Of a stretch of 64,000 nucleotides of DNA, positions 11,015 to 44,133 are shown piece after piece. The notes under the pieces are model-generated. The model made no database searches, was not told the DNA's origin, and saw nothing but the letters and a program-made list of their open reading frames with translations. Within the stretch, counting starts at the first letter, position 1. Every line of letters starts with the position of its first letter. The stretch covers positions 1 through 64,000 of the forward strand of contig JAHYJN010000012.1 in NCBI GenBank assembly GCA_019428905.1, read 5' to 3'. Made by a program: the position numbers and the translations under genes. Source of the DNA: Candidatus Brevefilum sp. (GTDB lineage: Bacteria; Chloroflexota; Anaerolineae; Anaerolineales; Anaerolineaceae).

Positions 11015-13609
11015 ATGGATTTAAATCAATACACACAAAAAGCACAACAGGCCATCATCCAGGCCCAAAGCCTGGCTGTGGACCTGAACCACCAGACCAT
11101 TGAACCAGCGCACCTACTGCTGGCCTTGCTCACACAGGATCAGGGTGTGGTTCCGGCCATTGTGACCAAGGTGGCTGGCAGTCCCCTGGCGCTGCGGGAG
11201 GAACTGCAGGCTGACCTAGAACACCGCCCCAAGGTCTACGGCGGAAATTCGGGTCAACCTGGCTTTGCGCGGGGCACAGCCGAGGTGACCAGTGCGGCAG
11301 AGCGTTACGCCAAGGGCATGTCGGATGAATATATCTCCACGGAGCACCTCTTGCTAGGCCTCACGGAAAGCGCCGAAGGTAAGCGCTTGTCTAGTTTCGG
11401 CCTGACCAAAGATGCGATTCTCAAAGCCCTCAAAGAGGTGCGCGGCTCGCAGCGCGTCACCTCCCAGACGCCTGAAACAACTTATGAAGCCTTGGAAAAA
11501 TACGGCCGTGACCTGACCGCCCTGGCGCGCACCGGAAAACTAGACCCCGTCATCGGCCGCGACGAGGAGATCCGCCGCATCGTGCAGATCCTTTCTCGCC
11601 GCACCAAGAACAACCCGGCCCTGATTGGCGAACCCGGTGTGGGCAAGACCGCCATCGTTGAAGGCCTGGCCCAGCGCATCGTCAACGGCGATGTGCCGGA
11701 CGGGCTTAAGAATAAGAAGATCATTGCACTGGATATCGGTTCGTTGATCGCCGGCGCCAAGTATCGCGGTGAGTTCGAGGAACGCCTGAAAGCCGTCCTC
11801 AAAGAGATCACTGATGCTGCCGGGGAGATCCTGTTGTTCGTAGACGAGATGCACACCGTGGTCGGTGCAGGTGCGGCCGAAGGCGCCGTAGATGCCGGCA
11901 ACATGCTCAAACCGATGCTCGCCCGCGGTGAGCTGCACATGATCGGCGCCACCACCCTGGACGAGTACCGCAAACACGTAGAGAAGGACGCCGCCCTCGA
12001 GCGCCGCTTCCAACCGGTATTTGTGACCGAGCCCTCAGTGGAAGACACCATCAGCATCCTGCGCGGTCTCAAACAGCGCTACGAGGTGCACCACGGCGTG
12101 CGCATCACCGACCCGGCCGTGATCGCCGCTGCTACCCTCTCCCACCGCTACATCGCCGACCGCTTCCTGCCGGATAAAGCCATCGACCTGATCGATGAGG
12201 CAGCTGCCCGTTTGCGCACCGAAATCGACTCCAAACCCCAAGCCCTGGATGAAGTTGATCGCGCCATTCTGCAGCTAGAAATTGAGCGCCAGGCGCTGCA
12301 GAAAGAGAAGGATAAAGCCTCCAAAGAGCGGCTGGCCAATATCGAAAAAGACCTGGCCGACCTGCGTGAGCAAGCCAACCAACTCCATACCCGCTGGGGA
12401 ACGGAAAAAGACGCTATCCAGGAAATCCGCGACATCAAGGAGCGGATGGACCAGACCGAGATCGAGATTGAACGCGCGGAACGCAACGCAGACCTGGAGC
12501 AGGCCGCCCGCCTGCGCTTTGGCACGCTGAACGATCTCCACACCCGGCTGGCGGAGGCTGAAGGCCGTTTGAATGACCTCCAAAAGGAATCCACCCTGCT
12601 CAAAGAGGAAGTCGACGCTGAGGAGATCGCCCAAATCGTCGCCAGGTGGACCGGCATCCCCGTCTCTCGTTTGCTGGAAGGCGAGATGCAGAAGCTGATG
12701 CGCATGGAAGAACGTCTGCACCAGCGCATCATCGGGCAGGATGAAGCCGTCGAGGTGATTTCCAACGCGGTCCGCCGCGCCCGGGCAGGCTTGCAGGACC
12801 CCAACCGTCCGATCGGGTCGTTCATCTTCCTCGGGCCGACCGGGGTCGGTAAAACCGAGCTGGCGCGCGCCCTGGCGGAATTCCTGTTCAACGATGAGGA
12901 CGCCATGGTGCGCATCGACATGAGCGAGTACCAGGAGAAGCACACCGTCAGCCGTTTATTCGGCGCGCCCCCCGGCTATGTCGGCTTCGAAGAGGGCGGC
13001 CAGCTGACCGAAGCGGTCCGCCGCCGACCCTACAGCGTGGTGTTGTTCGATGAGATTGAAAAGGCGCACAGCGAGGTCTTCAACGCCCTGCTGCAGCTGC
13101 TGGAGGACGGCCGCCTGACCGACGGCCAGGGGCGCACGGTTGACTTCCGCAACACCGTGGTGATCATGACCAGCAACCTGGGCAGCCAGCTGTGGATGAG
13201 CAGCCTGGCAGAGGATGGCGGCGTGAGAGAGGTGACGCGTGAGCAGGTTAACCGCCTGCTGCAGGCGCACTTCCGCCCTGAGTTCCTCAACCGTGTGGAT
13301 GAGATCGTTGTGTTCCACCCGCTCACCAGAGAGGATTTGGTGCAGATTGTCGACATCCAGCTCGAGCGTGTGGCAGGTCTAATGGCCCAGCGCGGCCTGA
13401 CGCTGCAGGTCGAACCGGAGGCACGCGCTTACCTGGCCGAGGTTGGCTACGACCCCGATTTCGGCGCCCGTCCCCTCAAACGCACAATCCAGCGGGAGGT
13501 GCAGGACCCGTTAGCGCTGAAGGTCGTCGGCGGCGAGGTGGGCGATGGCGATACGGTGCGGGTAACTCGCGGGGCAGATGGGCTGGTGTTTGAGACCCTG
13601 CCCTCATAA
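11015..13609 (+). CDS. clpB: ATP-dependent chaperone ClpB
   Basis: 864 aa; two AAA+ modules ([39 protein letters not shown]), Clp N domain, middle coiled coil. Confidence 0.97.
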
Positions 13610-13642: not shown

Positions 13643-13976
13643 AACCCCGGGGGTCTAAAGATAATAAGGATAAGCTGCATTTTCAATTCGCCCCCGACCG
13701 GCACGCGAACAAAGACCCCCGGGGTTTCTGTCGAATCTTTACCTGGCGCACAAAACCAACCATTTCAAACCCCGGGGGTCTAAAGATAATAAGGATAAGC
13801 TGCATTTTCAATTAGAACCCAACCGGCACGCAAACAAAGACCCCCGGGGGTTTTGTCGAATCTTCACCTGCTACACAAAACCAACCATTTCAAACCCCGG
13901 GGGTCTAAAGATAATAAGGATAAGCTGCATTTTCAATTAGAACCCAACCGACACGAAAATAAAGACCCCGGGGTCT
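13643..13976. repeat. Block A of ~125-bp inverted-arm tandem repeat array (units 1-3)
   Basis: Left arms AACCCCGGGGGTCT at 13643, 13768, 13893; right arms at 13713, 13838, 13963; period 125 bp read directly. Confidence 0.97.
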
Positions 13977-14044
13977 CTGGGTTCAACAAAAATACGTAGA
14001 TACTTTTTTTAATCTGAGTAATCGCAGATATCCTGTGATATCTT

Positions 14045-14386
14045 TTACGACAGTAACCAATCGATGATATGCTGCTTGATTTGCTCTAATCGATCAGAAG
14101 AAATTTCGCCAAGACGGGCATCAATGATCGTGCCTTCGACCGTGACCAATCGTGATAGTCGAACAACAGATGGTACTTTTAACCCAGAAGCGCGATAGTC
14201 GGGATCATTCGGATTAATTATCTCATCGAAATTTGGAATAGCTTGGTTGATACGTGAAGAAACAAGTGCTAAAAGAACATCATCATGACGACCGGGTGCT
14301 ATGGCAATCACCAACGCTGGACGAAGTTTCCCGCGTTGCAGATCAGCATGTGGAAAACGTATCAGGACAACATCACCAGGTTTCAT
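14045..14386 (-). CDS. Type II toxin, MazF/PemK family
   Basis: MKPGDVVLIRFPHADLQRGKLRPALVIAIAPGRHDDVLLALVSSR matches PemK/MazF fold pattern; overlaps upstream small antitoxin-like ORF. Confidence 0.85.
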   Translation of the reverse strand: MKPGDVVLIRFPHADLQRGKLRPALVIAIAPGRHDDVLLALVSSRINQAIPNFDEIINPNDPDYRASGLKVPSVVRLSRLVTVEGTIIDARLGEISSDRLEQIKQHIIDWLLS

Positions 14387-14652
14387 GGTCGATATATTTC
14401 CCGAGCATCCTTTAGCGAATATTCAACCTCATCCTCCTCACGCAAAAATTGCTCTAAGGAAAATTTTCGCCAATGGGATTTATCCCAGTCTGTATATCCC
14501 TGAGATATTTGTCGTCTCGCCATGATGAACGATGTAAAATCAGCAATTTGTTCGATTAATTCATCTGGCAAACGATCTATCTGTTTATGTAACTGCTCTC
14601 GAAGGTTGGTTATCGTCATGACAAATTCCTGGTTGTTGCAATAGTAAATCAA
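14383..14652 (-). CDS. Putative cognate antitoxin (DUF2281-like)
   Basis: Small ORF overlapping the toxin start by 4 nt; LPDELIEQIADFTSFIMARR pattern. Real start is likely the internal Met (MTITNLREQLHKQIDRLPDELI). Confidence 0.7.
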   Translation of the reverse strand: MIYYCNNQEFVMTITNLREQLHKQIDRLPDELIEQIADFTSFIMARRQISQGYTDWDKSHWRKFSLEQFLREEDEVEYSLKDAREIYRP

Positions 14653-14901
14653 ACATTACTTTCACATTATAGCATATGTAACTTTGTTCTCCCAAGAAAC
14701 AATAAATGCAGGATCTCACGCCAACTTGATCACTGAGATAATAAATTTCTTAACCAGTTCACAATCAAGAGTAATCACCTGAACCCCTGAAAGTTCAAAG
14801 AAGAAAAATCAGCTTTGAAAATCAAGTCAACGCTCATCCACCTTTAGAATGATCCCCAGGGTTTCAAAAATCATTTCTTCCGCACAAAACCAACCATTTC
14901 A

Positions 14902-16409
14902 AACCCCGGGGGTCTAAAGATAATAAGGATAAGCTGCATAATCAATCCGACCCCGACCGGCACGCAAACAAAGACCCCCGGGGTTTTTGTCGAATCTTCA
15001 CCCGCCGCACAAAACCAACTAGTTCAAACCCCGGGGGTCTAAAGATAATAAGGATAAGCTGCATGATCAATCCGACCTCAACCGGCACGCAAACAAAGAC
15101 CCCCGGGGTTTTTGTTGAAATTCACCTTCCGAACAATACTAACCATCTCAAACCCCGGGGGTCTGAAGATTTTAAGCTTGCTCTGCATTTGCAATTCGAT
15201 GCCAACCGGCACGTAAACAAAGACCCCCGGGGTTTCTGTTGAAATTCACCTTCCGAACAATACTAACCATCCCAAACCCCGGGGGTCTGAAGATTTTAAG
15301 GTTGCTCTGCATTTTCAATTCGCCCCCAACCGACACGCAAATAAAGACCCCGGGGTTTTTGTCGAATCTTCATCTGCTACACAAAACCACCCATCCAAAC
15401 CCCGGGGGCCTATAGATAATAAGGATAAGCTGCATTTTCAATTAGAACCCAACCGGCACGCAAACAAAGACCCCCGGGGTTTCTGTTGAATCTTCATCTG
15501 CTACACAAAACCAACCATTTTAAACCCCGGGGGTCTAAAGATTCTAAGTTTGATCTGCATTTTCAATTCGAACCCAACCGGCACGCAAACAAAGACCCCC
15601 GGGGTTTCTGTCGAATCTTTACCCGCCGCACAAAACCAACCATTTCAAACCCCGGGGGTCTAAAGATAATAAGGATAAGCTGCATTTTCAATTCGCCCCC
15701 AAGCGGCACGTAAACAAAGACCCCCGGGGTTTTTGTTGAATCTTCATCTGCTACACAAAACCAACTAGTTCAAACCCCGGGGGTCTGAAGATAATAAGGA
15801 TAAGCTGCATTTTCAATTCGCCCCCAAGCGGCACGTAAACCAAGACCCCCGGGGTTTTTGTCGAATCTTCATCTGCTACACAAAACCAACCATTTCAAAC
15901 CCCGGGGTTCTTAAGATTTTAAGGTTGATCTGCATGATCAATCCGAACCCAACCGGCACGCAAACAAAGACCCCCGGGGTTTTTGTCGAATCTTCACCCG
16001 CCGCACAAAACCAACCATTTCAAACCCCGGGGGTCTGAAGATAATAAGGATAAGCTGCATTTTCAATTCGCCCCCAAGCGGCACGCAAACAAAGACCCCC
16101 GGGGTTTCTGTTGATCTTCACCTGCCGCACAAAACCAACTAGTTCAAACCCCGGGGTTCTTAAGATTTTAAGGTTGATCTGCATGATCAATCCGAACCCA
16201 ACCGGCACGCAAACAGAGACCCCCGGAGTCTCTGTTGATCTTCACCCGCCGCACAAAACCAACCATTTCAAACCCCGGGGGTCTGAAGATAATAAGGATA
16301 AGCTGCATGATCAATCCGACCCCAACCGGCACGCAAACCAAGACCCCCGGGGTTTCTGTCGAATCTTCATCTTCCGAACAATACTAACCATCCCAAACCC
16401 CGGGGGTCT
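14902..16409. repeat. Block B of ~125-bp inverted-arm tandem repeat array (units 4-15 plus a terminal half-unit)
   Basis: Left arms at 14902, 15027, 15151, 15275, 15398, 15523, 15648, 15773, 15898, 16023, 16147, 16271 and a lone left arm at 16396; spacing 123-125 bp. Confidence 0.97.
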
Positions 16410-16513
16410 GAAGAAGAATAATGCGTTACACGGATGCAAATGAACATTCAAGTATGCGTCAACCAAGAATCCAGGATTTTTTATTGACATTCCTCTATAA
16501 TTAATCTACGACG

Positions 16514-17239: not shown

Positions 17240-18076
17240 TTATTTAGCATCATTTGCACTTGACTGCTGCACCAGCACCGTTTGGATCGGGTAGGGCAGG
17301 TTGATGTGATGCTCATGCGACACCCGGTTGACCGCCTTCAACACCTCCGAATGCACCCGCAGCGGGCTGTTTTCCTTCTGGTCAACCCAGTAAAACGCGG
17401 TCAGCGAAAGGCTAGAGTCGTCCATGCTCATCGCCTGGATCATCGGCGCGGGTTCGTTTTCGACGCCCGCCACCGCCTGGATCGCCCCCAGGAAGATATC
17501 CATGGCACGGTCGACATCCTCCTCGTAACCCAGCCCAATCCGCACCGTGCGCCGGCGCAGTTGCGCGGTTGACATGTTAATGATTGGGTTTTCAAAAACC
17601 TTGTTGTTGGGGATGATCACCAGGTCACCATCCAGGGTTTGGATTTCGGTATCGCGGATGTTGATCATCTTCACCGTCCCGGTGTGACCCGAGACCTCGA
17701 TAAAATCGCCAATTTTAAACGGTTGGCGATACAGCAAGATCAACCCAGAGATGAAGTTGCGGGCGATATCCTGCAGGGCAAAACCGATCGTGAACCCAGC
17801 GATGCCCAACCCAGCCACAAAACCGGTCACATTGAAGTCGACCTGGTCCAAGGCCACCACCGTGCCGATGATCACCACCGTCCACTGGCTGATCTGCTTG
17901 ATCAGCTTTAGCACCTCCGGGCTTTTGATGCGCCTGGAAGCCAGCCTACGCATGGCTTTAGCAGGGATGCTTGCTGCCAGCAAGGTCAGGATAAAAATCA
18001 CGATCGCCGCAATCAATTTTGGGAAAAATAAAAGAAATGATGCCAACCATTCATTCATGATCGCAGAAATATCCAT
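17240..18076 (-). CDS. Small-conductance mechanosensitive channel (MscS family)
   Basis: GLGIAGFTIGFALQDIARNFISGLILLYRQPFKIGDFIEVSGHTGTVKMINIRDTEIQTLDGDLVIIPNNKVF. Confidence 0.95.
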   Translation of the reverse strand: MDISAIMNEWLASFLLFFPKLIAAIVIFILTLLAASIPAKAMRRLASRRIKSPEVLKLIKQISQWTVVIIGTVVALDQVDFNVTGFVAGLGIAGFTIGFALQDIARNFISGLILLYRQPFKIGDFIEVSGHTGTVKMINIRDTEIQTLDGDLVIIPNNKVFENPIINMSTAQLRRRTVRIGLGYEEDVDRAMDIFLGAIQAVAGVENEPAPMIQAMSMDDSSLSLTAFYWVDQKENSPLRVHSEVLKAVNRVSHEHHINLPYPIQTVLVQQSSANDAK

Positions 18077-33482: not shown

Positions 33483-33840
33483 TGTGTACTGCGGTTGTTT
33501 TTCCGGACACTTTTTAATGGTTGTAAATTAGGTATCCAAAGCTTATCCAGAAACATGGGCTATCTCAACCTCTGATGGGGTCAATTTAACCAAAGCAGAA
33601 TGGATCTTCTCTGTCATGTCCTCGATCTCCATCCAGAAGACAACTCGTAACCACGATTTAGGACGGCACAGGGCCACCTAATACCTGATTCCTAATACCT
33701 GATCCCTAATACCTATTACCTATTACCTCATACCTAATACCTTCTCCGTGATATAATCCCAACTGCAGATGCGGTAGTCTGGCTGCTGTTGCCATCAAAG
33801 CCGCATAAACCAAAGACCGAAATTTAAGGAGGAACGAAGA

Positions 33841-35175
33841 TTGAAAACCTATCAACTGCCTGGCCCAAAGGCGCAGGCGATCATCAAACGCGATCAAGCG
33901 ATCATTTCACCTTCATACCCACGCGCCTATCCCTTTGTGATGGACCACGGCAAAGGCACCGAGGTGTGGGATGTCGACGGCAACCGCTTCTTAGATTTTG
34001 CGGCGGGAATCGCCGTGGTCGCCACCGGTCACAGCCACCCCCAGGTGGTCAAAGCCATCCAGGACCAGGCTGAAAAATTCATCCATGTCTCATCCGATTA
34101 TTACCACGAGACCTGGGTGCGGTTAGGTGAGAAGTTCGACGAAATCGCCCCGTTTGACGGCCCAACTGCCTCGTTTATGAGCAACTCTGGCACCGAAAGC
34201 GTAGAAGCCGCTATCAAGCTGGCCCGCTTCCATACCAAACGCCATGGGTTCATCAGCTTCCTGGGTGCCTTCCACGGCCGCACCGTCGGCTCGGTGACCC
34301 TGACTGCCAGTAAATCCCATTATAAAAGCGGTTTCGCACCGCTGATGAATGGTGTGGTACACGTCCCCTTTCCCGATCCATACCGTCCTCTACTGGCCAG
34401 GCGGGCAGGTGAAGGCTATGGGGAAGCCATAGTGCGCTACATCGAAGATGAAATCATGCAGCGCCTCCTCCCAGCTGACGAGGTCGCAGGCTTCGTAATC
34501 GAGCCGATCCAGGGTGAGGGCGGTTACATCGTCCCGCCGCCGGATTTCTTCCCCGCATTACGGGCGCTGTGCGACAAATACGACATCTTGCTGATCGCCG
34601 ACGAGGTGCAATCGGGCATGGGACGCACCGGCAAGTGGTGGGCGATCGAAAACTTCGGCGTGGAGCCGGATATCATCACCAGCGCCAAAGGGCTGGCATC
34701 GGGGATGCCCCTCGGGGCGATGATCACCCGCAAAGAGATCATGAGCTGGCCCAAAGGTTCCCATGGCAACACCTATGGCGGCAACCCGATCGCCTGTGCA
34801 GCCTCATTGGCGACCATCGACCTGATCGAAAAAACGTACATGAAAAACGTGCGGGATGTCGGTCCCTATACCCTGGACGCCTTGGCCGAAATCATGGCCA
34901 GGCACCCCAGCATTGGCGAGGTGCGCGGCATCGGGCTGATGATCGGCGTCGATTTTGTCCAGGATCGCGAATCTAAAACCCCGGCTGTCGACCTGCGCGA
35001 TGCGGTCGTCAACCTGGCCTTTGAACGCGGCCTGCTGACCCTCGGCTGCGGCCACAGCACCATCCGCATCTCACCGCCCCTTTCCACCACCCGTTCCGAA
35101 GTCGACGAAGCCCTGCTGATCTTCGAAGAAGCAATTTCACTGGCTGAAGCACAGTTCGGCGATATATATAAGTAA
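33841..35175 (+). CDS. Class III aminotransferase (acetylornithine / 4-aminobutyrate type)
   Basis: Starts TTG after AGGAGG; FMSNSGTESVEAAIKLAR; VIEPIQGEGGYIVPP; LLIADEVQSGMGRTGKWWAIE; ITSAKGLASGMPLGAMI. Confidence 0.93.
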   Translation: MKTYQLPGPKAQAIIKRDQAIISPSYPRAYPFVMDHGKGTEVWDVDGNRFLDFAAGIAVVATGHSHPQVVKAIQDQAEKFIHVSSDYYHETWVRLGEKFDEIAPFDGPTASFMSNSGTESVEAAIKLARFHTKRHGFISFLGAFHGRTVGSVTLTASKSHYKSGFAPLMNGVVHVPFPDPYRPLLARRAGEGYGEAIVRYIEDEIMQRLLPADEVAGFVIEPIQGEGGYIVPPPDFFPALRALCDKYDILLIADEVQSGMGRTGKWWAIENFGVEPDIITSAKGLASGMPLGAMITRKEIMSWPKGSHGNTYGGNPIACAASLATIDLIEKTYMKNVRDVGPYTLDALAEIMARHPSIGEVRGIGLMIGVDFVQDRESKTPAVDLRDAVVNLAFERGLLTLGCGHSTIRISPPLSTTRSEVDEALLIFEEAISLAEAQFGDIYK

Positions 35176-35304
35176 TCGATAACTACTCAGAGTTTAAGGT
35201 AATAGGGGGTTGTGGTGCGGCGGCTTCGCCGCCACATCACACCCCCCACCCTTCACCAGCATGGCTGCCTGAGACAATCCAGTCATCGGTTTGATCAAGG
35301 TTAG

Positions 35305-36336
35305 GTGCCAGACATGGCTAGAGATGATGGTCTTAAACAAGCAACCCTCTCCTGGCTGCTGCAAGAAGAACACCCAGGGGTGCGCTATCTCGCCCTACGG
35401 GACCTGCTCGATCTTGACCCAGCGGACCCGGAACTGCTCACAGCGCGTGCTCAAGCCCATCAGAACGGCCCCATCGCCCATATCCTGGCTGCCATGGTTG
35501 AACCGGGCTGGTGGGCTGAACCCGGCCCAGGCTATAACCCGAAATACCGCAGCACGGTATGGTCCCTCATCATGCTAGGCCAGCTGGGGGCCTCAGCACA
35601 GTTTGACGAACGCATCAAACGCGCCTGCAGCTACCTGTTGGACCACGCCCTGACCGAATTCGGCCAATTCAGCGCTTCGGGAACCCCCGGGGGCACCGCC
35701 GACTGCTTGCAGGGTAATTTGCTTTCAGCCCTGCTGGACCTGGGCTATGCTGACCCGCGCCTTGAAAAAGCCTTCGAGTGGATGGCGCGCAGCGTCACCG
35801 GTGAAGGTGTGGCCCCCATGGGAGAAAAAAACACCCCCATCCGCTACTATGCGGGAAAAATTGGCCCTAATTTCGCTTGCGGCGCCAATAATAAGCTTCC
35901 TTGTGCCTGGGGTGCGGTCAAAGTCATGCTGGCCTTCAGTAAGCTCCCCACAGCCAAACGCACGCCGTTGATCAATCAGGCCATCGAACAGGGGATTGAT
36001 TTCCTGTTGAGCGTTGACCCACTGGACGCTGCTTACCCTACCGGTTACAGTGCTAAACCCAGCGGCAATTGGTGGAAATTCGGCTTCCCGGTGTTCTATG
36101 TGACCGACCTGCTGCAAAACGTGGAAGCCCTGGTCCGCTTGGGCCTGGGAGCTGACCTACGCCTCACCCGCGCCCTGGCTTACATCGTGGAGAAGCAGGA
36201 CCAGGACGGCCGCTGGTCACTGGATTATGATTACACCGGCAAAACCTGGGTTGATTTTGGTCCCAAAAAGCAACCCAATAAATGGGTCACTTACCGCGCA
36301 GCCTGGGTGATAAAAAACGCTTATCACCCAGGCTAA
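35305..36336 (+). CDS. Hypothetical protein, prenyltransferase / squalene-cyclase-like alpha-toroid
   Basis: Repeated helical pattern ending VEKQDQDGRWSLDYDYTGKTWVDFG (QW-like). Confidence 0.5.
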   Translation: MPDMARDDGLKQATLSWLLQEEHPGVRYLALRDLLDLDPADPELLTARAQAHQNGPIAHILAAMVEPGWWAEPGPGYNPKYRSTVWSLIMLGQLGASAQFDERIKRACSYLLDHALTEFGQFSASGTPGGTADCLQGNLLSALLDLGYADPRLEKAFEWMARSVTGEGVAPMGEKNTPIRYYAGKIGPNFACGANNKLPCAWGAVKVMLAFSKLPTAKRTPLINQAIEQGIDFLLSVDPLDAAYPTGYSAKPSGNWWKFGFPVFYVTDLLQNVEALVRLGLGADLRLTRALAYIVEKQDQDGRWSLDYDYTGKTWVDFGPKKQPNKWVTYRAAWVIKNAYHPG

Positions 36337-36386
36337 CCCCTCGTCTATTCAATTTTCGCGAATACCTGTTTTCCCAGCCCTCTGGA

Positions 36387-37751
36387 TTATTTCGTGGGCG
36401 TTGGTGTCGGGGGCGGGTCCCACACCAGCAAGCTGGCAATCGGCCCGGTCAGGCTGGCATAGTTACCCCAGACCCAGCAATGCCCGGCACTGGTGGGGTT
36501 CTTGATCACCCAGTAGGTTCCAGCAGCGTTGCGCCCGATCACTTCAGCGATCTTCCCAATCCTTAAGATGGTGAGAATCTCATAAGCCTGCCCCGGACCC
36601 GTACGGCAGTTGGTATCAACCCTGACTTGCAGGGTGACCGAGGATGGGGTGGGTGTGGCGGGCGGGTCCCACACTGGCAGGTTGGCTGTCGATCCTGTCA
36701 GCTTGGCGTATTCACCCCACACCCAGCAGTGACCCGACCCTTCGGGATTTTCAATCACCCAGTAGTCAGCTGTCCCGTGCCGCCCGATCACATTCACCGT
36801 TTTACCAGGCTGCAGCACACTGACAATCTCGTAGGCTTTCCCTGGCCCCACCCGGCAGTTGGTGGGCACACTCACACTCAGCACGACACCCGTTGGCGTC
36901 GGTGTCACACCGGCGCTGGGCGTTGGTGCTGGTGGGGCTTCCCACACCGGCAGGCTGGCTGGCGAGCCGCTGAACTTAGCATACTCACCCCACACCCAGC
37001 AGTGACCGGATCCATCTGGATTTTCAACGACCCAGAAGTCTGCGCTGGCATGCCGGCCGATGACATTGACCGTCTTTCCAGGCCGCAGCACGCTGACGAT
37101 GTCGTATATCATCCCAGGTCCCACCCGGCAGTTGGTTGGCACGCTTACCTCAAGCACGACCTTCGTGGGTGTAGGCGTCAGACCAGCGATGGGTGTTGGG
37201 GTTGGTGGCGCAGCCCACACCGGCAGATCAGCCGTTTGACCGCTGACCCGGGCATAATTGCCCCATAACCAGCATGTGCCGGCCCCAGCCGGGTTCTGAA
37301 CGACCCAGTACGTGCCGCTAGCATTACGAGCGACCACTTCCACCTGTCGGCCAACTGGCAGGACGCTCACCCAGTCGTAAATCTTACCCGGACCGGTTCG
37401 GCAGTTGGTGGCCACGCTCACCTCTGCCAGGGGAACGGAGGATATAGCTGTGGCGGTGGGCAAAGGCATTTCGGTTGCGGTGGCTGTCGCAGTTGGTGTT
37501 AATGTAGGGGTTGCTTGTGGGGAGGGTTCTTCGATCGGCGCTTGTTCTTCGACGGTCGTCGGCATAGCTACCATCGTCTGCGTTACAATCACCTCAATTT
37601 GCTGTTGGACATCCAGGGTTTGGGCAATAAAGGTTTCCACCAGCTGTTCGAGACCCTCCTCTTGCTGCCCATCGGGGGGTGTGCTGCACGCGCTGATCAC
37701 CAGCAGGGGGATTACAACAAATGCTAACATCAAGAATTTATTGGTTTTCAT
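36387..37751 (-). CDS. Lipoprotein with four tandem SH3b-like domains
   Basis: Lipobox LLVISACS; four ~75-aa repeats of V.TNCR.GPG..Y.....L..G....V.GR......V..NP...G.CWVWG.YA...G..A.LPVW..P. Confidence 0.85.
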   Translation of the reverse strand: MKTNKFLMLAFVVIPLLVISACSTPPDGQQEEGLEQLVETFIAQTLDVQQQIEVIVTQTMVAMPTTVEEQAPIEEPSPQATPTLTPTATATATEMPLPTATAISSVPLAEVSVATNCRTGPGKIYDWVSVLPVGRQVEVVARNASGTYWVVQNPAGAGTCWLWGNYARVSGQTADLPVWAAPPTPTPIAGLTPTPTKVVLEVSVPTNCRVGPGMIYDIVSVLRPGKTVNVIGRHASADFWVVENPDGSGHCWVWGEYAKFSGSPASLPVWEAPPAPTPSAGVTPTPTGVVLSVSVPTNCRVGPGKAYEIVSVLQPGKTVNVIGRHGTADYWVIENPEGSGHCWVWGEYAKLTGSTANLPVWDPPATPTPSSVTLQVRVDTNCRTGPGQAYEILTILRIGKIAEVIGRNAAGTYWVIKNPTSAGHCWVWGNYASLTGPIASLLVWDPPPTPTPTK

Positions 37752-37858
37752 TTTGTCCTCTTTTTTTCTTTCATCGTAACGGCTCAGGAAGCACTTTTGC
37801 TGAAGGGTGCTCGCACTGAGTACTTACCTTTCATCTATTTCGGATCAATACACCCAGG

Positions 37859-38359
37859 TCACGGGACATACGGTGGCAAATCCAGTACCTGGCAAACACC
37901 TTCCTCCTCACAGTTGACACGCACCGTAAACACATCTACGGGTGGCATCTCCTCTTCGGTCGCGCCGCAGCAGGGTCCTAACACAAACCGGCTTCCATCC
38001 GGGTTGGCATACGCTACTTCAAACACCAGGATATCTTGAAGATCAGCATCGATGGCTGCCAGGCTTAATACCGGCAAGCAGATGAAACCGTTGAACTCGC
38101 ATGCTGCAGTCAGCAAACCCGACTTATCATCCGGGTCCATCCCCGGGTTAAAATATTCCAGCTCCTCATACGAACCCCCATACAGCTCAACAGCTTTTTC
38201 GTACTCACCCTGGCTGAGTAACGCGAAAAATTCCACCAAAGCCGCTTTCGCTTGAGACTCGTGCGTGATATTTTGACCACCTTCAGATGCAAACGGACCA
38301 ATATTGCATGCATTTAAGAAAATAATCAGTAAGAAAATTAATAATTGTCGTGGTTTCAT
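37859..38359 (-). CDS. Hypothetical lipoprotein
   Basis: Signal peptide with LIIFLNACN lipobox; coherent ORF. Confidence 0.55.
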   Translation of the reverse strand: MKPRQLLIFLLIIFLNACNIGPFASEGGQNITHESQAKAALVEFFALLSQGEYEKAVELYGGSYEELEYFNPGMDPDDKSGLLTAACEFNGFICLPVLSLAAIDADLQDILVFEVAYANPDGSRFVLGPCCGATEEEMPPVDVFTVRVNCEEEGVCQVLDLPPYVP

Positions 38360-38654
38360 CGGATCCTTATCAAGATCAAATTAATATCAAATTACCGAAC
38401 TTAGTTAATCAAATAGACGTAATTATTATGAAGAACGTTCCAATGAACCTATCATTGAATTGAATTGAACAGGGATCGGTAAAATCAAACCATTCCCAAT
38501 CTTAATCTAATAAACTCATAACATACAAGTCCAAATGACCCTCCTAATCCCTAATCCCTATTACCTATTACCTATTACCTATTACCCAACGAAGTCCCCG
38601 TAGCGTTAGCTGAGTGGGATACCTAATCACCTTCTTTTGCGTTAGAATTAACCT

Positions 38655-40196
38655 ATGCTACCTGACATCCGTGTACGCCAGCGCGATTACCTTTTGGAAA
38701 TTTCCCGTGCGTTGACCGAAGAACTCGACCTGGATAAACTGCTGAGCCGCATCCTCAAATATGCCATCGAAATGTTGGCTGGGCAGGCCGGCTTTATCGC
38801 ACTGAGCAACCAACAGGGACACTGGTCGCTGGCCGTGGCTAACGGCATCCCAGACGCTATCAAACGTTACCTGGACGCCTGGCTGGAAAAAATCCCTGCT
38901 ATCCAGGACCCAAAGGACATTGACCTGCCGGAACTCAACCGCCTGCTGCAGCAGATCAGTATGGGCAACCTGACTGCAGTGGGGCTGCCGCTCGTCGCCC
39001 AGAATGAAGTGATCGGCTTCATTTATATCTTCCGCAACTACCAGGGTGTGTTCTCAGCCAATGACCGCTCGCTGCTCTCCAGCTTTGCCAACCAGGCCGC
39101 CATCGCTGTGCGCAATGCCCGTTTGTATACCGAGATCAACCGCGAAAAACAGCGCATAGATGCCATGCTCAACTCCGCCGCGGATGGGATCCTGATCCTG
39201 CTCCCGGACCACGGCATCGAACGCACCAACGCCGCCTTTGCGCGTATGTATGGCCGGACCCAGGCTGAACTCCAAGCCCTCAAACACGGCGACGTGATCA
39301 AATGGGTCAAACCGCCCAACGGCATCACCCTCGAAAAAGCTGAGGCCGGCGGCTGGCCCCTTTCCCCTGAAGCCCACCTGTATGTGGAAGGCGACCTAGC
39401 CCGCCCAGACGGCCAACCGCCTCTGCCGGTGGGGATCACCTATGCCCCGCTGCTCTCGACCGAAGGTACCCTGATCAGCACCATCGCCACCGTGCGCGAT
39501 ATCACCCACTTCAGGCAGGCTGATGAGCTAAAAAGCGAGTTTGTGAGCATCATCAGCCATGAGCTTAAAACGCCCGTGGCCCTGATCAAGGGCTATGTCA
39601 GCACCCTGCGCCGGGACGACGTGGAATGGGATTGCAATGTGATGGACAACAGCCTCGAAGTGATCGAAGAGGAAGCTGACCGCCTGACCGGGTTGATCGA
39701 AAACATGCTGGATGCCACCCGCCTGCAAATGAACAGCATGCAGCTTAAAAAAGCGGATGTCGACCTGCACAAGCTGGTTAAACGACTGGCTGAACGCTTC
39801 CAGGTGCAAACGGAAACCCATCAGATCCTGAACGAGATCCCTGAGGACTTCCCAATTGTGATGGCTGATGAACCGCGGGTCGAACAGGTCGTCAGTAATT
39901 TGATCTCCAACGCGATTAAATATGCCCCCAGTGGGGATATTCGTCTCACCGGGCAAACGCTGTCCGACCTGGTCGTGATCTGCGTGGCGGATGAAGGGCC
40001 GGGAATAGCGGCCGGGGACCTGCCCCACATCTTTGACCGCTTTTACCGGGCACAGGAGACCAGCCGCAAGACCAAAGGCGCCGGTCTGGGGCTGTACCTG
40101 GCGCGCGCCATCGTTGAAGCGCATAGCGGACGCATGTGGGCGGATGCCAAGCAGGATCAAGGCGCCCGGATCTGTTTTTCGCTCCCCCGGGACTGA
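38655..40196 (+). CDS. Sensor histidine kinase with GAF and PAS domains
   Basis: FVSIISHELKTPVALIKGYVSTL (H box); NLISNAIKYAP (N box); VADEGPGI; GAGLGLYLARAIVEAHSG. Confidence 0.93.
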   Translation: MLPDIRVRQRDYLLEISRALTEELDLDKLLSRILKYAIEMLAGQAGFIALSNQQGHWSLAVANGIPDAIKRYLDAWLEKIPAIQDPKDIDLPELNRLLQQISMGNLTAVGLPLVAQNEVIGFIYIFRNYQGVFSANDRSLLSSFANQAAIAVRNARLYTEINREKQRIDAMLNSAADGILILLPDHGIERTNAAFARMYGRTQAELQALKHGDVIKWVKPPNGITLEKAEAGGWPLSPEAHLYVEGDLARPDGQPPLPVGITYAPLLSTEGTLISTIATVRDITHFRQADELKSEFVSIISHELKTPVALIKGYVSTLRRDDVEWDCNVMDNSLEVIEEEADRLTGLIENMLDATRLQMNSMQLKKADVDLHKLVKRLAERFQVQTETHQILNEIPEDFPIVMADEPRVEQVVSNLISNAIKYAPSGDIRLTGQTLSDLVVICVADEGPGIAAGDLPHIFDRFYRAQETSRKTKGAGLGLYLARAIVEAHSGRMWADAKQDQGARICFSLPRD

Positions 40197-40307
40197 GGAC
40201 CAGGTTGACCTTGCCCCATCAGCATCCTGACCAGGTGTGATCTAATCACCTGGTTCGCCACAAGAAACAATTTAACAGTTAGAACCCATAGAGAGGAAAA
40301 TACCACC

Positions 40308-42221
40308 TTGGCAATGCGACGAAGAAATTGGCGCAGTTATATCGATGCATCGGATGAAAAACCCCATCTCTCATGGGCGCTTGTCAAGCGAGTTCTGGCT
40401 TATGGGAAACCTTATAGTTGGCGCATGATTGGCAGCTTGCTCTCGATCCTGGCCTACACGGGGGTGGCGCTGCTCTCACCGCTGATCCTCAGGCACCTGA
40501 TTGACTATGCCATTCCTGAAAAAGATCTTGATCGCCTGGTATTGGCTGCGGTCGGGCTGCTGGTCTTGCCCATCATCAGCGGTCTGTTCCAGATCATCAC
40601 CCGGCGCCTGGTCTCACAGGTTGGGGAGGGCGTCATCTACGATTTGCGGGTCTCGTTATATCAGCATCTGCAAAAAATGTCGTTACGCTTCTTCACACAC
40701 ACCCAGCTGGGTGAGTTGATCAGCCGTTTGAACAATGACGTGATCGGCGCCCAAACGGCCATCAGCCGCACCCTGGTGACCCTGGTGACCAGTTTTATCG
40801 AGGTGATCATCACCCTGGTGGTGATGCTAACCCTTGAATGGCGCCTGACCCTGATGGGTATCTTAATTTTGCCCCTGTTCATCATTTCTGCCCGCCGCCT
40901 GGGACGGGTTTTCCGCGATATTGCCCGGCGCCAGATGGAGATGAACGCCCGCATGAACGCCACCATGAACGAAACCCTCAACATCGGCGGTGCCCTGCTG
41001 GTCAAGCTCTTCGGACAGGGCAATGCGGAAGTGGAACGTTTCAGCCGGCGTTCCAATGAAGTCAAATTGCTCGGCATCCAGCGTGCCACCATGGGGATCG
41101 TCTTCATGGTCATTGTCCACCTGCTGACCGCGGTGGGAACCGCCCTGGTATACGGCGTGGGCGGTTATTTGGTGATCCTGAGCATGTTCACCCTGGGCAC
41201 GATCGTCGCCTTTGGCGATTACCTCTCGCGTCTGTACAACTCCTTCCAGGGTTTCATCAACGCCCCGGTGGAGTTTGCCACCTCGATGGTCAGCTTTGAG
41301 CGCGTCTTCGAGGTGATCGACCTGCCGCTTGACATTGTCGAAAAGGAAAATGCCATCCCCCTTGGTGACGTTCGGGGAGCCCTCGAATTTGACCAGGTTA
41401 CCTTTAAGTACCAGGACACCAACCATGGCTTGCTCAGCAATGTGGATCGCCCGTACTTGATGGAAAAGGCCGGCGGGGTCCTATCTGACGAGGAAGTTGA
41501 ATGCCGTGACCCAGCCCGCCCTGTCACCAGCCAGGCGCGTGAAATGGCCCTCAAGAATATCTCCTTCACCGCCCAACCCGGCGACCTGGTCGCCCTGGTA
41601 GGCCCCAGCGGCGCTGGCAAGACCACCCTGACCTACCTGATCCCGCGCCTCTACGACCCAACCGGGGGCGCCATCCGCATCGATGGGCACGACCTGCGCG
41701 ATTTAAAGATGGATGACCTGGCAGCAGCCATCGGGATGGTCACCCAGGAGACCTACCTGTTCCACGACACCATCCGATCCAACCTGCTGTATGCCAACCC
41801 ACAGGCGACCACTGAGGAGTTGGTCAACGCTGCCCAGGCGGCCAACATCCACCAATTCATCTCGGACCTGCCCGACGGCTACCAAACCATTGTCGGTGAG
41901 CGCGGCTACCGCCTTAGCGGCGGTGAGAAACAGCGGCTGGCACTGGCCCGCGTACTCCTCAAGGACCCCCGCATCATGATCCTCGACGAAGCCACCAGCC
42001 ACCTCGACAGCGAATCCGAAGCCCTGATCCAGGAAGCCCTCGAGCGCATGTACACCAACCGCACCAGCATCGTCATCGCCCACCGGCTGAGCACGATCCT
42101 CTCGGCGGATTTGATCCTGGTGATGGATAAGGGTCAAGTCATCGAACGCGGGACACATAAGGACCTGCTGGCAATGGGCGGTCTGTATGCCCACCTGTAC
42201 GAGACCCAATTCAAGCAGTAA
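40308..42221 (+). CDS. ABC transporter, fused permease/ATP-binding (exporter)
   Basis: ABC_membrane region; VGPSGAGKTTLTYLIPRLYDP; YRLSGGEKQRLALARVLLKDPRIMILDEATSHLD. Confidence 0.95.
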   Translation: MAMRRRNWRSYIDASDEKPHLSWALVKRVLAYGKPYSWRMIGSLLSILAYTGVALLSPLILRHLIDYAIPEKDLDRLVLAAVGLLVLPIISGLFQIITRRLVSQVGEGVIYDLRVSLYQHLQKMSLRFFTHTQLGELISRLNNDVIGAQTAISRTLVTLVTSFIEVIITLVVMLTLEWRLTLMGILILPLFIISARRLGRVFRDIARRQMEMNARMNATMNETLNIGGALLVKLFGQGNAEVERFSRRSNEVKLLGIQRATMGIVFMVIVHLLTAVGTALVYGVGGYLVILSMFTLGTIVAFGDYLSRLYNSFQGFINAPVEFATSMVSFERVFEVIDLPLDIVEKENAIPLGDVRGALEFDQVTFKYQDTNHGLLSNVDRPYLMEKAGGVLSDEEVECRDPARPVTSQAREMALKNISFTAQPGDLVALVGPSGAGKTTLTYLIPRLYDPTGGAIRIDGHDLRDLKMDDLAAAIGMVTQETYLFHDTIRSNLLYANPQATTEELVNAAQAANIHQFISDLPDGYQTIVGERGYRLSGGEKQRLALARVLLKDPRIMILDEATSHLDSESEALIQEALERMYTNRTSIVIAHRLSTILSADLILVMDKGQVIERGTHKDLLAMGGLYAHLYETQFKQ

Positions 42222-42289
42222 GCGCCCCGTCTCTCAAACCCCGTGGGACTTTGCTTTCTATAACCGCATCAAACTATCAGGGTTTAATT

Positions 42290-42410
42290 TACCTTTTACC
42301 TACTACCTATTACCGATTACCTAATACCTATTACCTACTACCTATATTATCCCCGAAGCGTCAGCTGAGTGGGACTACCTATTACCTACTACCTACTACC
42401 CACTACCTGA
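42290..42410. repeat. Heptanucleotide tandem repeats (TACCTAY / TACCTAA)
   Basis: taccttttacctactacctattaccgattacctaatacctattacctactacctat ... ctacctattacctactacctactacccactacc. Confidence 0.9.
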
Positions 42411-42520
42411 ACTTAAGGACCCCGGGATTATATAAAATTTATTATAAAGATTTTTGGGCTTAAAATCCTTCGGGCCTAATATGATTATTTTTTCGTGGTT
42501 AACGACAATATAAATCGCAT

Positions 42521-42895
42521 TCACGAATGGTGAATAAACTTGACGCCATCCAGCCCCTCAAAATCAGTGTCCTGGGTCCATAAGATGGAATCATATTCAC
42601 GTGCCGTTGCCAGCATGATGCTATCCGCCATGGGGACCTTCAAATCGAAGGAAAGCTTGGCCGCGTGCAAGGCCAAAGGTGTCGAAAGCTCCACAACCTG
42701 CCCGGATTGCATGAAAGCGATTGCCCTGAGCGCGTCTGTCTCCCCTTTTTGCTGGAGAACCCGCTTAAATACCTCAAACAGGCTGATGGTCGGAACGATC
42801 AAGTCAGAGCTGTTCTCAATTGGCGCGCTGAAAAAACCTGCATTTGGCCCGTCGGCAAAGTATTCCAACCACCCAGAAGAGTCGACGACATTCAT
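42521..42895 (-). CDS. vapC: PIN domain ribonuclease toxin (VapC family)
   Basis: MNVVDSSGWLEYFADGP ... VPMADSIMLATAREYDSILWTQDTDFEGL. Confidence 0.9.
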   Translation of the reverse strand: MNVVDSSGWLEYFADGPNAGFFSAPIENSSDLIVPTISLFEVFKRVLQQKGETDALRAIAFMQSGQVVELSTPLALHAAKLSFDLKVPMADSIMLATAREYDSILWTQDTDFEGLDGVKFIHHS

Positions 42896-43098
42896 ACTCG
42901 GTCCTCGTCCCGTTCAACGGTCGTATCCATCCCCGCCAGGAAACCCCGACCGTCCCTGATGTGTTTGACCGGGATCAACTCAATCCGCCCCATGTAAGGA
43001 ATCACCTGGATTTTTTGCCCGGGTTTGATACCCAAACGATCTCGTACGCGCTTGGGGATGACCACCTGGTATTTTGTTGAGACCGTTACACGATCCAT
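42892..43098 (-). CDS. vapB: AbrB/MazE-type swapped-hairpin antitoxin (VapB-like)
   Basis: MDRVTVSTKYQVVIPKRVRDRLGIKPGQKIQVIPY; 4-nt overlap with toxin. ORF track start at 43164 is probably too long. Confidence 0.88.
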   Translation of the reverse strand: MDRVTVSTKYQVVIPKRVRDRLGIKPGQKIQVIPYMGRIELIPVKHIRDGRGFLAGMDTTVERDEDRV

Positions 43099-43374
43099 AC
43101 GTTTCTCCGATCGATCTATATATCGTATTACCAATATTATAACCGAAAATAATGCGTTTTTCAATCAACGCCATCCGGTTTCCTATCACACATAAACTCA
43201 TATTTTCAGAAAGGTGATACCATGGAAATTTTCATTGGATCCAATCACGACACCTCAATTGTTTTTGCCCCCAAGGACACCTGCCGTGTTACCTATTTGC
43301 TTTTATTATCTGCAAACACGATTTAGGATTGGTTTCCTTATACCTACTACCTATTACCTACTACCCTCTACTCA

Positions 43375-44133
43375 CTACTCACTACTCACTACTCTTTTCC
43401 GATAATATTCATACGCATAAATCCGCTCAAACCCCAGCCTGGCATACATTGCCAAAGCGGGATGGTTATCCCCCTCCACCTGCAGGTACGCATAAGTCGC
43501 GCCGCGCTCGATGCCCCAATCCGACAGCGCTCCCATCATCAAACGCCCATACCCCTTGCGCCGCCATGTTGCTGCGGTGTAGATGCTGAAAAACCCCATC
43601 AGGAACCCCTCCGCGACACCCATCCCGCATGCCACCGGCTTGCCCCCAACAAACAACCCCATCAAGACCATCTCGGGCACGATGCTGCGCACAATCGCTT
43701 CATGCGCCAGACGGTCAGGCGCCGGCACCCGCATGAATTGATCTCGCATCCGGAACCAATCCTCAGCCGGCATCTCCAGGACGGTCAGGTCAGCGTGAAG
43801 ATCCTCTCCCATCACCAGATTGCGCCCCAACACATAGGTCGGGTCAAAGGGCGTATATCCCGCTTGTTGCAACGCCTGCGTGAGTTGCGGGGTGGCGATG
43901 AATTCGTTGACCCTGAACAGGCATGGCAGCCCCAGGCTGGCGTAAATCGCTTCACAGGTGTGGATTTTCTCTTGGAGGGGCATTGTCGTCGGGTACAGCG
44001 GGTTGACCGAGTTCACCCGTTTGGAGTGACCCCCAGCAAAGCGCAGCAGCCAGCCATCGTAGATCACCTGGCGTGGCGCCGGCCAGGCGTTTAGCGCGGC
44101 TTCTTCAATTCTGAGGAGTAGATTCTTTTCCAT
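43375..44133 (-). CDS. GNAT family N-acetyltransferase
   Basis: GFFSIYTAATWRRKGYGRLMMGALSDWGIERGATYAYLQVEGDNHPALAMYARLGFERIYAYEYY. Confidence 0.92.
   Translation of the reverse strand: MEKNLLLRIEEAALNAWPAPRQVIYDGWLLRFAGGHSKRVNSVNPLYPTTMPLQEKIHTCEAIYASLGLPCLFRVNEFIATPQLTQALQQAGYTPFDPTYVLGRNLVMGEDLHADLTVLEMPAEDWFRMRDQFMRVPAPDRLAHEAIVRSIVPEMVLMGLFVGGKPVACGMGVAEGFLMGFFSIYTAATWRRKGYGRLMMGALSDWGIERGATYAYLQVEGDNHPALAMYARLGFERIYAYEYYRKRVVSSE

Follow-up and report, generated by a model that had tools for sequence, protein, structure and literature searches.

The sequence downstream of clpB in Candidatus Brevefilum sp. raises the question of what kind of element is built from GC-rich inverted arms repeated in tandem. 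The window, which is the whole 64,000-nucleotide stretch analysed here, is contig C67 of an assembly (G000) of 149 contigs and 3.04-Mb. The features of the locus are listed below, P and T denoting two arm flavours described further on.

11015..13609, plus strand: clpB (Pfam), conserved by synteny on the left side of the element in four species
13643..13977, plus strand: first block of 3 units, with left arms of P type at 13643/13768/13893 and right arms of T type at 13713/13838/13963
13643..13656, plus strand: example of a left arm of P type, AACCCCGGGGGTCT, with AAAGATAA after it
13713..13726, plus strand: example of a right arm of T type, AGACCCCCGGGGTT, with GCGAACAA before it (TTGTTCGC on the opposite strand)
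13978..14880, no strand: interruption between the blocks, with the MazF-like toxin gene, the small upstream ORF and a decayed right arm at ~14850 (boundary sequence)
14045-14386, minus strand: PemK/MazF-like toxin gene (PF02452, E = 6e-14)
14383-14652, minus strand: small ORF upstream of the mazF-like gene (ORF call)
14877..16409, plus strand: second block, made of a linker end, 12 full units and a lone last left arm, with left arms from 14902 to 16396
17240..18076, minus strand: mscS-like channel gene, conserved to the right of the element; PIG-L and YacP come next, an order shared by four species

The original prediction had described 15 full units and an extra arm, and the 16 left arms AACCCCGGGGGTCT were indeed found at exactly 13643, 13768, 13893 and 14902 to 16396, giving 3 + 12 units and an unpaired final left arm. 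The first block begins 34 bp past the clpB stop codon. Near-complementary right arms (n = 15), each AGACCCCCGGGGTT or a near copy, follow the left arms by ~70 bp at 13713, 13838, 13963 and from 14972 to 16341, and the arm-to-arm block measures 84 bp. The unit length of 123-125 bp was reproduced, Tandem Repeats Finder returning two blocks (13643-13973 and 14880-16414) with a period of 125. We counted 30 CCCGGG cores in the interval, where ~31 had been claimed, and 57 in the whole window. The description of the interval as non-coding held for the repeat units but failed for 13977-14880, where the MazF-like toxin gene and the small ORF lie on the minus strand; family searches with the small ORF gave no match. 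Among the 15 array units, column conservation was highest in the arms (0.99/0.97), with the spacer at 0.90 and the linker at 0.89. No higher-order repeat was detected within the array, unit identity being 0.85-0.87 whatever the lag, and arm spacing judged by eye against the helical repeat revealed no clear phasing. Elsewhere in the window (33676-43394), several short 7-bp tandem repeats of the CCTAATA/CCTACTA type lie between genes and possibly represent a second small-repeat family.

Pattern searches of the whole assembly showed that the arms belong to a dispersed family, of which no larger cluster than this array was found. The 14-bp arm pattern with up to one mismatch gave at least 133 matches (63 + 70), against 2 (2 + 0) for a reversed-pattern control; these copy numbers are minimum values, because contigs break in the repeat, as short-read assemblies do, and several arm-bearing contigs start or stop within it. 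The arms occur mostly as inverted pairs whose loops differ between sites, and are spread over ~20 contigs either as solitary inverted pairs or as further tandem arrays, whose spacers are unrelated and whose periods range from ~105 to 210 bp. Because the same arms occupy at least 20 unrelated intergenic sites, one of the roles first proposed, that of a dedicated array acting as centromere or boundary, is not supported. On contig C111 (L184 2685-5565, L190 3722-6202), clusters of an AATCCC subfamily lie in series 0.25-1.6 kb apart, a 1.78-kb stretch is present in two places with 95% identity, and there are two IS110 copies, apparently identical from the start of their translations. IS110 was rejected as the mobiliser, the C111 copies being situated between clusters and within another repeat, and not bounded by arms.

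The taxonomic range of the arm is narrow. The exact 15-mer was found in 5/16 genus members and in 0/45 genomes of other genera in the family or order, and arms are present in four to six genus mates of G000. A scan of GTDB r220 with the paired exact pattern returned only Anaerolineae, or unspecified Chloroflexota corresponding to one genus mate. The viral contigs, phages and plasmids searched contained no arms, and a plasmid, phage or virus source was accordingly rejected. In two genus mates (G001, G014) the same stem encloses loops of just 5-10 nt, and five genomes from other families, sparsely spread over the class, have AGACCCCWGGGGTT-type short-loop hairpins; such short palindromes may therefore be old within the class. 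Two near-identical larger palindromes, AAAGACCCCAGGGGTTT...AAACCCCTGGGGTCT, were seen in ACE_NR_CHLO5 (Anaerolineae; L119 7924-7988 and L125 5856-5920) within an apparent outer CTTCTCA...TGAGAAG repeat, as a MITE-like relative.

Closer inspection of the family revealed that its building block, a 14-15 bp arm, (A)AACCCCGGGGGTCT, of which inverted pairs can form a 14-bp stem, comes in two flavours; neither these flavours nor the dispersal of the arms figured in the original prediction. The bases outside the GTCT end are either TTGTTT (T arm, 40% of all arms) or, in the P arm, a purine-rich hexamer (GAGGAA, AAAGAT and TAAGAA are examples). Neighbouring arms in inverted orientation nearly always combine a T with a P: among 203 such pairs none joined two T arms and 183 contained exactly one, in both the '<>' (94/104) and the '><' (89/99) order. 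When a single pair per locus was retained, exactly one T arm was present in 33/40 '<>' and 26/32 '><' pairs, and label permutation on that set reached the observed count in 0 and 1 of 20,000 trials, respectively. As the P flavour was defined post hoc, after inspection, and these data had also drawn attention to the T hexamer, the permutation shows only T-T avoidance within pairs, a test that the definition of P does not affect. In the window array, all printed left arms are P and all printed right arms are T.

Comparison of orthologous loci allowed us to follow the history of the element. The order clpB, element, mscS, PIG-L, YacP is common to G000, G003, G004 and G007, and the element between clpB and mscS numbers one pair in G004, ten arms (5 copies) in G007 and 16 left arms in the window, while in G003 the arms are interleaved with genes. 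A second orthologous locus has five arms in G000 (C41) and one pair in G004 (C12). These differences in copy number between orthologous sites show an element inherited in place and amplified locally, and the window array is such a local amplification. The earlier suggestion of a palindromic element amplified in tandem is thus supported, both by the existence of dispersed single pairs and by the variable copy number of orthologous loci. The clpB-mscS spacers of G000 can barely be aligned with those of the other species (identity 0.62-0.64, a score equalled by 6 to 48 of 500 shuffles) and those of G004 and G007 align somewhat better, whereas the arms are nearly unchanged across species. Constant arms and drifting spacers are consistent with an arm sequence that is recognised as such, or with palindromes that convert one another. 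The element probably also moves, because homology between unrelated loci (C13/C87, C85/C87) stops within a few bases of the arms.

The layout of the family closely resembles that of known repeat systems. In E. coli BIMEs, Y and Z units are combined in alternating orientation (PMC2817692). Arm maps of the window and ~40 further loci show regularly spaced palindromic units in alternating orientation here too; the absence of T-T pairs gives two alternating unit types, and the family is extragenic with more than 100 copies per genome (133 arms), no cluster of 52 lying inside an ORF according to a simple ORF caller. With E. coli BIME-2 (Y and Z2 REPs) it shares short two-flavour palindromes in opposite orientation, two kinds of linker, an extragenic location and tandem clusters. 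It differs from BIME-2 in arm sequence, in having no GTAG foot and no arm-flanked RAYT, in its larger and more variable loops, and in that a lone arm is loopless and forms its stem with the adjacent arm. Pseudomonas REPINs are likewise inverted pairs with a variable interior, dispersed and vertically inherited; they are, however, RAYT-dependent, whereas the RAYT genes here serve another REP family, and large tandem arrays occur here. The original view that no described family has this form was therefore right for the sequence, which had no Rfam, plasmid, phage or viral match, and wrong for the architecture, which is that of REP/BIME clusters.

Two systems described by Di Nocera (2013, PMC3733652) merit comparison. 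CGTC-tagged REPs resemble the present family as palindromes without a dedicated transposase, and some P arms carry CCTC or CGTC at the place of the tag, which can also be CCTC or TGTC in that family (PMC3733652). Their 8-9 bp stems, 4-5 nt loops and usual CCA tail are nevertheless unlike the present arms, and the five phyla in which they are listed do not include Chloroflexi (PMC3733652). The TIR families of TIRYT genes are also self-complementary, form dimers and clusters and contain a GGGG motif (PMC3733652), but their GGGGWSAS is not matched here (GGGGTCTT) and no tyrosine transposase adjoins the arms. REPs have been listed for Anaerolinea thermolimosa, and the present arm family is not recognisable in the passage on them (PMC12306157).

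The genome does contain RAYT genes, and an origin as RAYT-associated GTAG REPs or REPINs was considered and rejected. Three Y1_Tnp matches were obtained in G000, two of which (C53 and C113) are true RAYTs according to NF047646; both have GTAGGGTGGGCAG...CTGCCCACC or related GTAG-type REPs of other sequence on their flanks. No arm matching at 13/14 or better was present in the RAYT neighbourhoods examined, and the GTAG tetranucleotide is absent from the arm foot, where the context is TTGTTT or purine-rich. The two RAYT genes (C53, L193 3000-5200; C113, L195 2700-4700) sit within clusters of GTAG-tagged REPs, GTAGGGTGGGCAGTTCnnGCCTGCCCACC, often spaced by 43 bp, and constitute REPtrons in a Chloroflexota genome. 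Separately, a 220-434 aa protein encoded on C89 (L194 3269-4537), with relatives in G003, G005 and G007, has a C-terminal Y1_Tnp-like domain seemingly without the HUH histidines, and a similar match recurs in other genus members; from its sequence it is possibly a domesticated REP-transposase domain.

Taken together, we consider that the array is probably the largest cluster found of a REP/BIME-like intergenic palindromic repeat family of this Anaerolineae genus. The family is BIME-like, lacks GTAG, is not linked to RAYT and has an arm sequence not previously listed. We propose that an arm-recognising enzyme generated the single pairs, through transposition or copying over a short range, and that inverted arms would form stems on single-stranded DNA during replication. 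Where arms of like orientation are close to each other, recombination of the unequal kind, or slippage of replication at the GC-rich stems, could then expand an arm pair and its flanking DNA into a tandem unit of 105-210 bp; alternatively, an arm-binding protein may multiply pair and flank. Recombination among arms may also bring in or retain DNA such as the mazF segment. The near identity of the arms would be explained by their recognition by a putative protein or structure, or by gene conversion between palindromes, and at the 3' ends of genes the element is probably mild in effect, acting as an RNA hairpin or transcription barrier.

A possible, if doubtful, alternative is that the ~84 bp P>...<T block is a MITE, a non-autonomous element that has terminal inverted repeats of 15 bp, is asymmetric in its subterminal sequence and depends for its movement on an ordinary IS transposase absent from the assemblies. 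Like MITEs, the blocks are non-coding, ~84 bp long and bounded by 15-bp inverted ends; for some copies, homology between unrelated loci starts and stops at the arms of a '><' block (C13/C87a, C85/C87b, C41/G007i), and the flank is conserved on the GTCT side of the arm and not, beyond one A, on the AACC side. Both pair orders occur, however, and single '<...>' pairs with the same outer hexamers, shared between loci of G005, are not predicted by a '><' transposon. Unlike in MITEs, no target duplication was recognised by eye in the flanks examined and no full-length parent element with such ends was found near arms, the only transposase met there being the IS110 that is not arm-bounded. We also entertain, as a rather unlikely reading, a RAYT-independent mobile system in which a putative recombinase or transposase recognises both flavours, disperses the pairs and amplifies them in tandem, sometimes capturing genes. 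No mobilising enzyme for the arms was found, the true RAYTs belonging to the GTAG-type REPs.

It is unlikely that the pairs are intrinsic terminators or stabilisers of mRNA 3' ends, selected as RNA hairpins and amplified downstream of clpB. They do fold strongly: as RNA, the 84-bp arm-to-arm block gave -28 to -39 kcal/mol (z -2.2 to -4.3), and single strands of one unit, or of the linker with its two arms, also gave good folds (z -2.2 to -4.5). A T-rich tail follows one arm flavour, short-loop versions exist elsewhere in the genus and class, and the absence of copies from ORFs is accompanied by few between divergent genes: the 40 scorable clusters separate 15 convergent, 21 co-directional and 4 divergent gene pairs, the window being scored as co-directional only because mazF falls under the length limit of the ORF caller. 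Against this, loops are usually 28-70 nt, and a scan for intrinsic terminators (short-loop GC stem plus U run) found no excess, with 4 sites for 4.8 expected and loops mostly above 25 nt; the T tail runs with or against neighbouring tandem genes about equally, as judged by eye, and a single copy would be enough. An Rfam search of the window matched only rRNA and tRNA, with nothing for the array at the gathering threshold; the array may nevertheless encode a structured RNA, another of the roles first proposed.

Compensatory evolution of the stem was also weak, the partner compensating deviating positions in 7/118 cases in '<>' and 9/103 in '><' pairs (shuffle maxima 9 and 7). A GGGATT/AATCCC subfamily is compensated, though this may be a single inherited change. 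As most arm changes are uncompensated, a selected hairpin is not proved, and recognition of the arm sequence is favoured over pairing alone. Such conserved arms with mostly uncompensated variation would also be expected of a double-strand binding site, and E. coli BIMEs serve as binding sites for gyrase, Pol I and IHF. It is still quite improbable that the array here binds a protein in a chromosomal role, as a domain boundary, in partition or as a supercoiling sink: no candidate protein emerged, and copy number at orthologous sites ranges from 1 pair to 16 units.

Very improbable indeed is an integron-like cassette array with arms as recombination sites and the mazF, radical-SAM-like and FGE lipoprotein genes as cassettes, for although a MazF-like gene lies inside the window array and at the clpB locus of G003 genes are enclosed by two '<42>' pairs together with additional arms, inspection of arm and flank sequence found no match to attC R''/R' boxes as we know them, most spacers hold no gene, many pairs are solitary, and the three tyrosine recombinases of G000 (PF00589) reach no more than ~70 bits, where the cut-off of TIGR02249 is 265 bits, and are not IntI. 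At that G003 locus (C188, L099 900-3600), between clpB and mscS, the bracketed genes are a radical-SAM-like gene, split over two frames and named from its translation with no Pfam match, and a gene for an FGE-domain lipoprotein.

The usual explanation of BIMEs invokes GTAG-REPs and RAYT transposases. The REP/BIME-like family proposed here has a two-flavour, alternating and extragenic design in a phylum remote from the enterobacteria, and its palindromes are not owned by the RAYT/GTAG-REP system resident in the same genome. If this reading is correct, the BIME architecture would be convergent; were a RAYT-independent mobile system also to prove real, it would constitute a second, independently evolved route to that architecture. 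The missing enzyme could then be searched for by its absence from genus mates without arms, and the orthologous clpB and C41 loci offer a ready copy-number series for studies of array growth.
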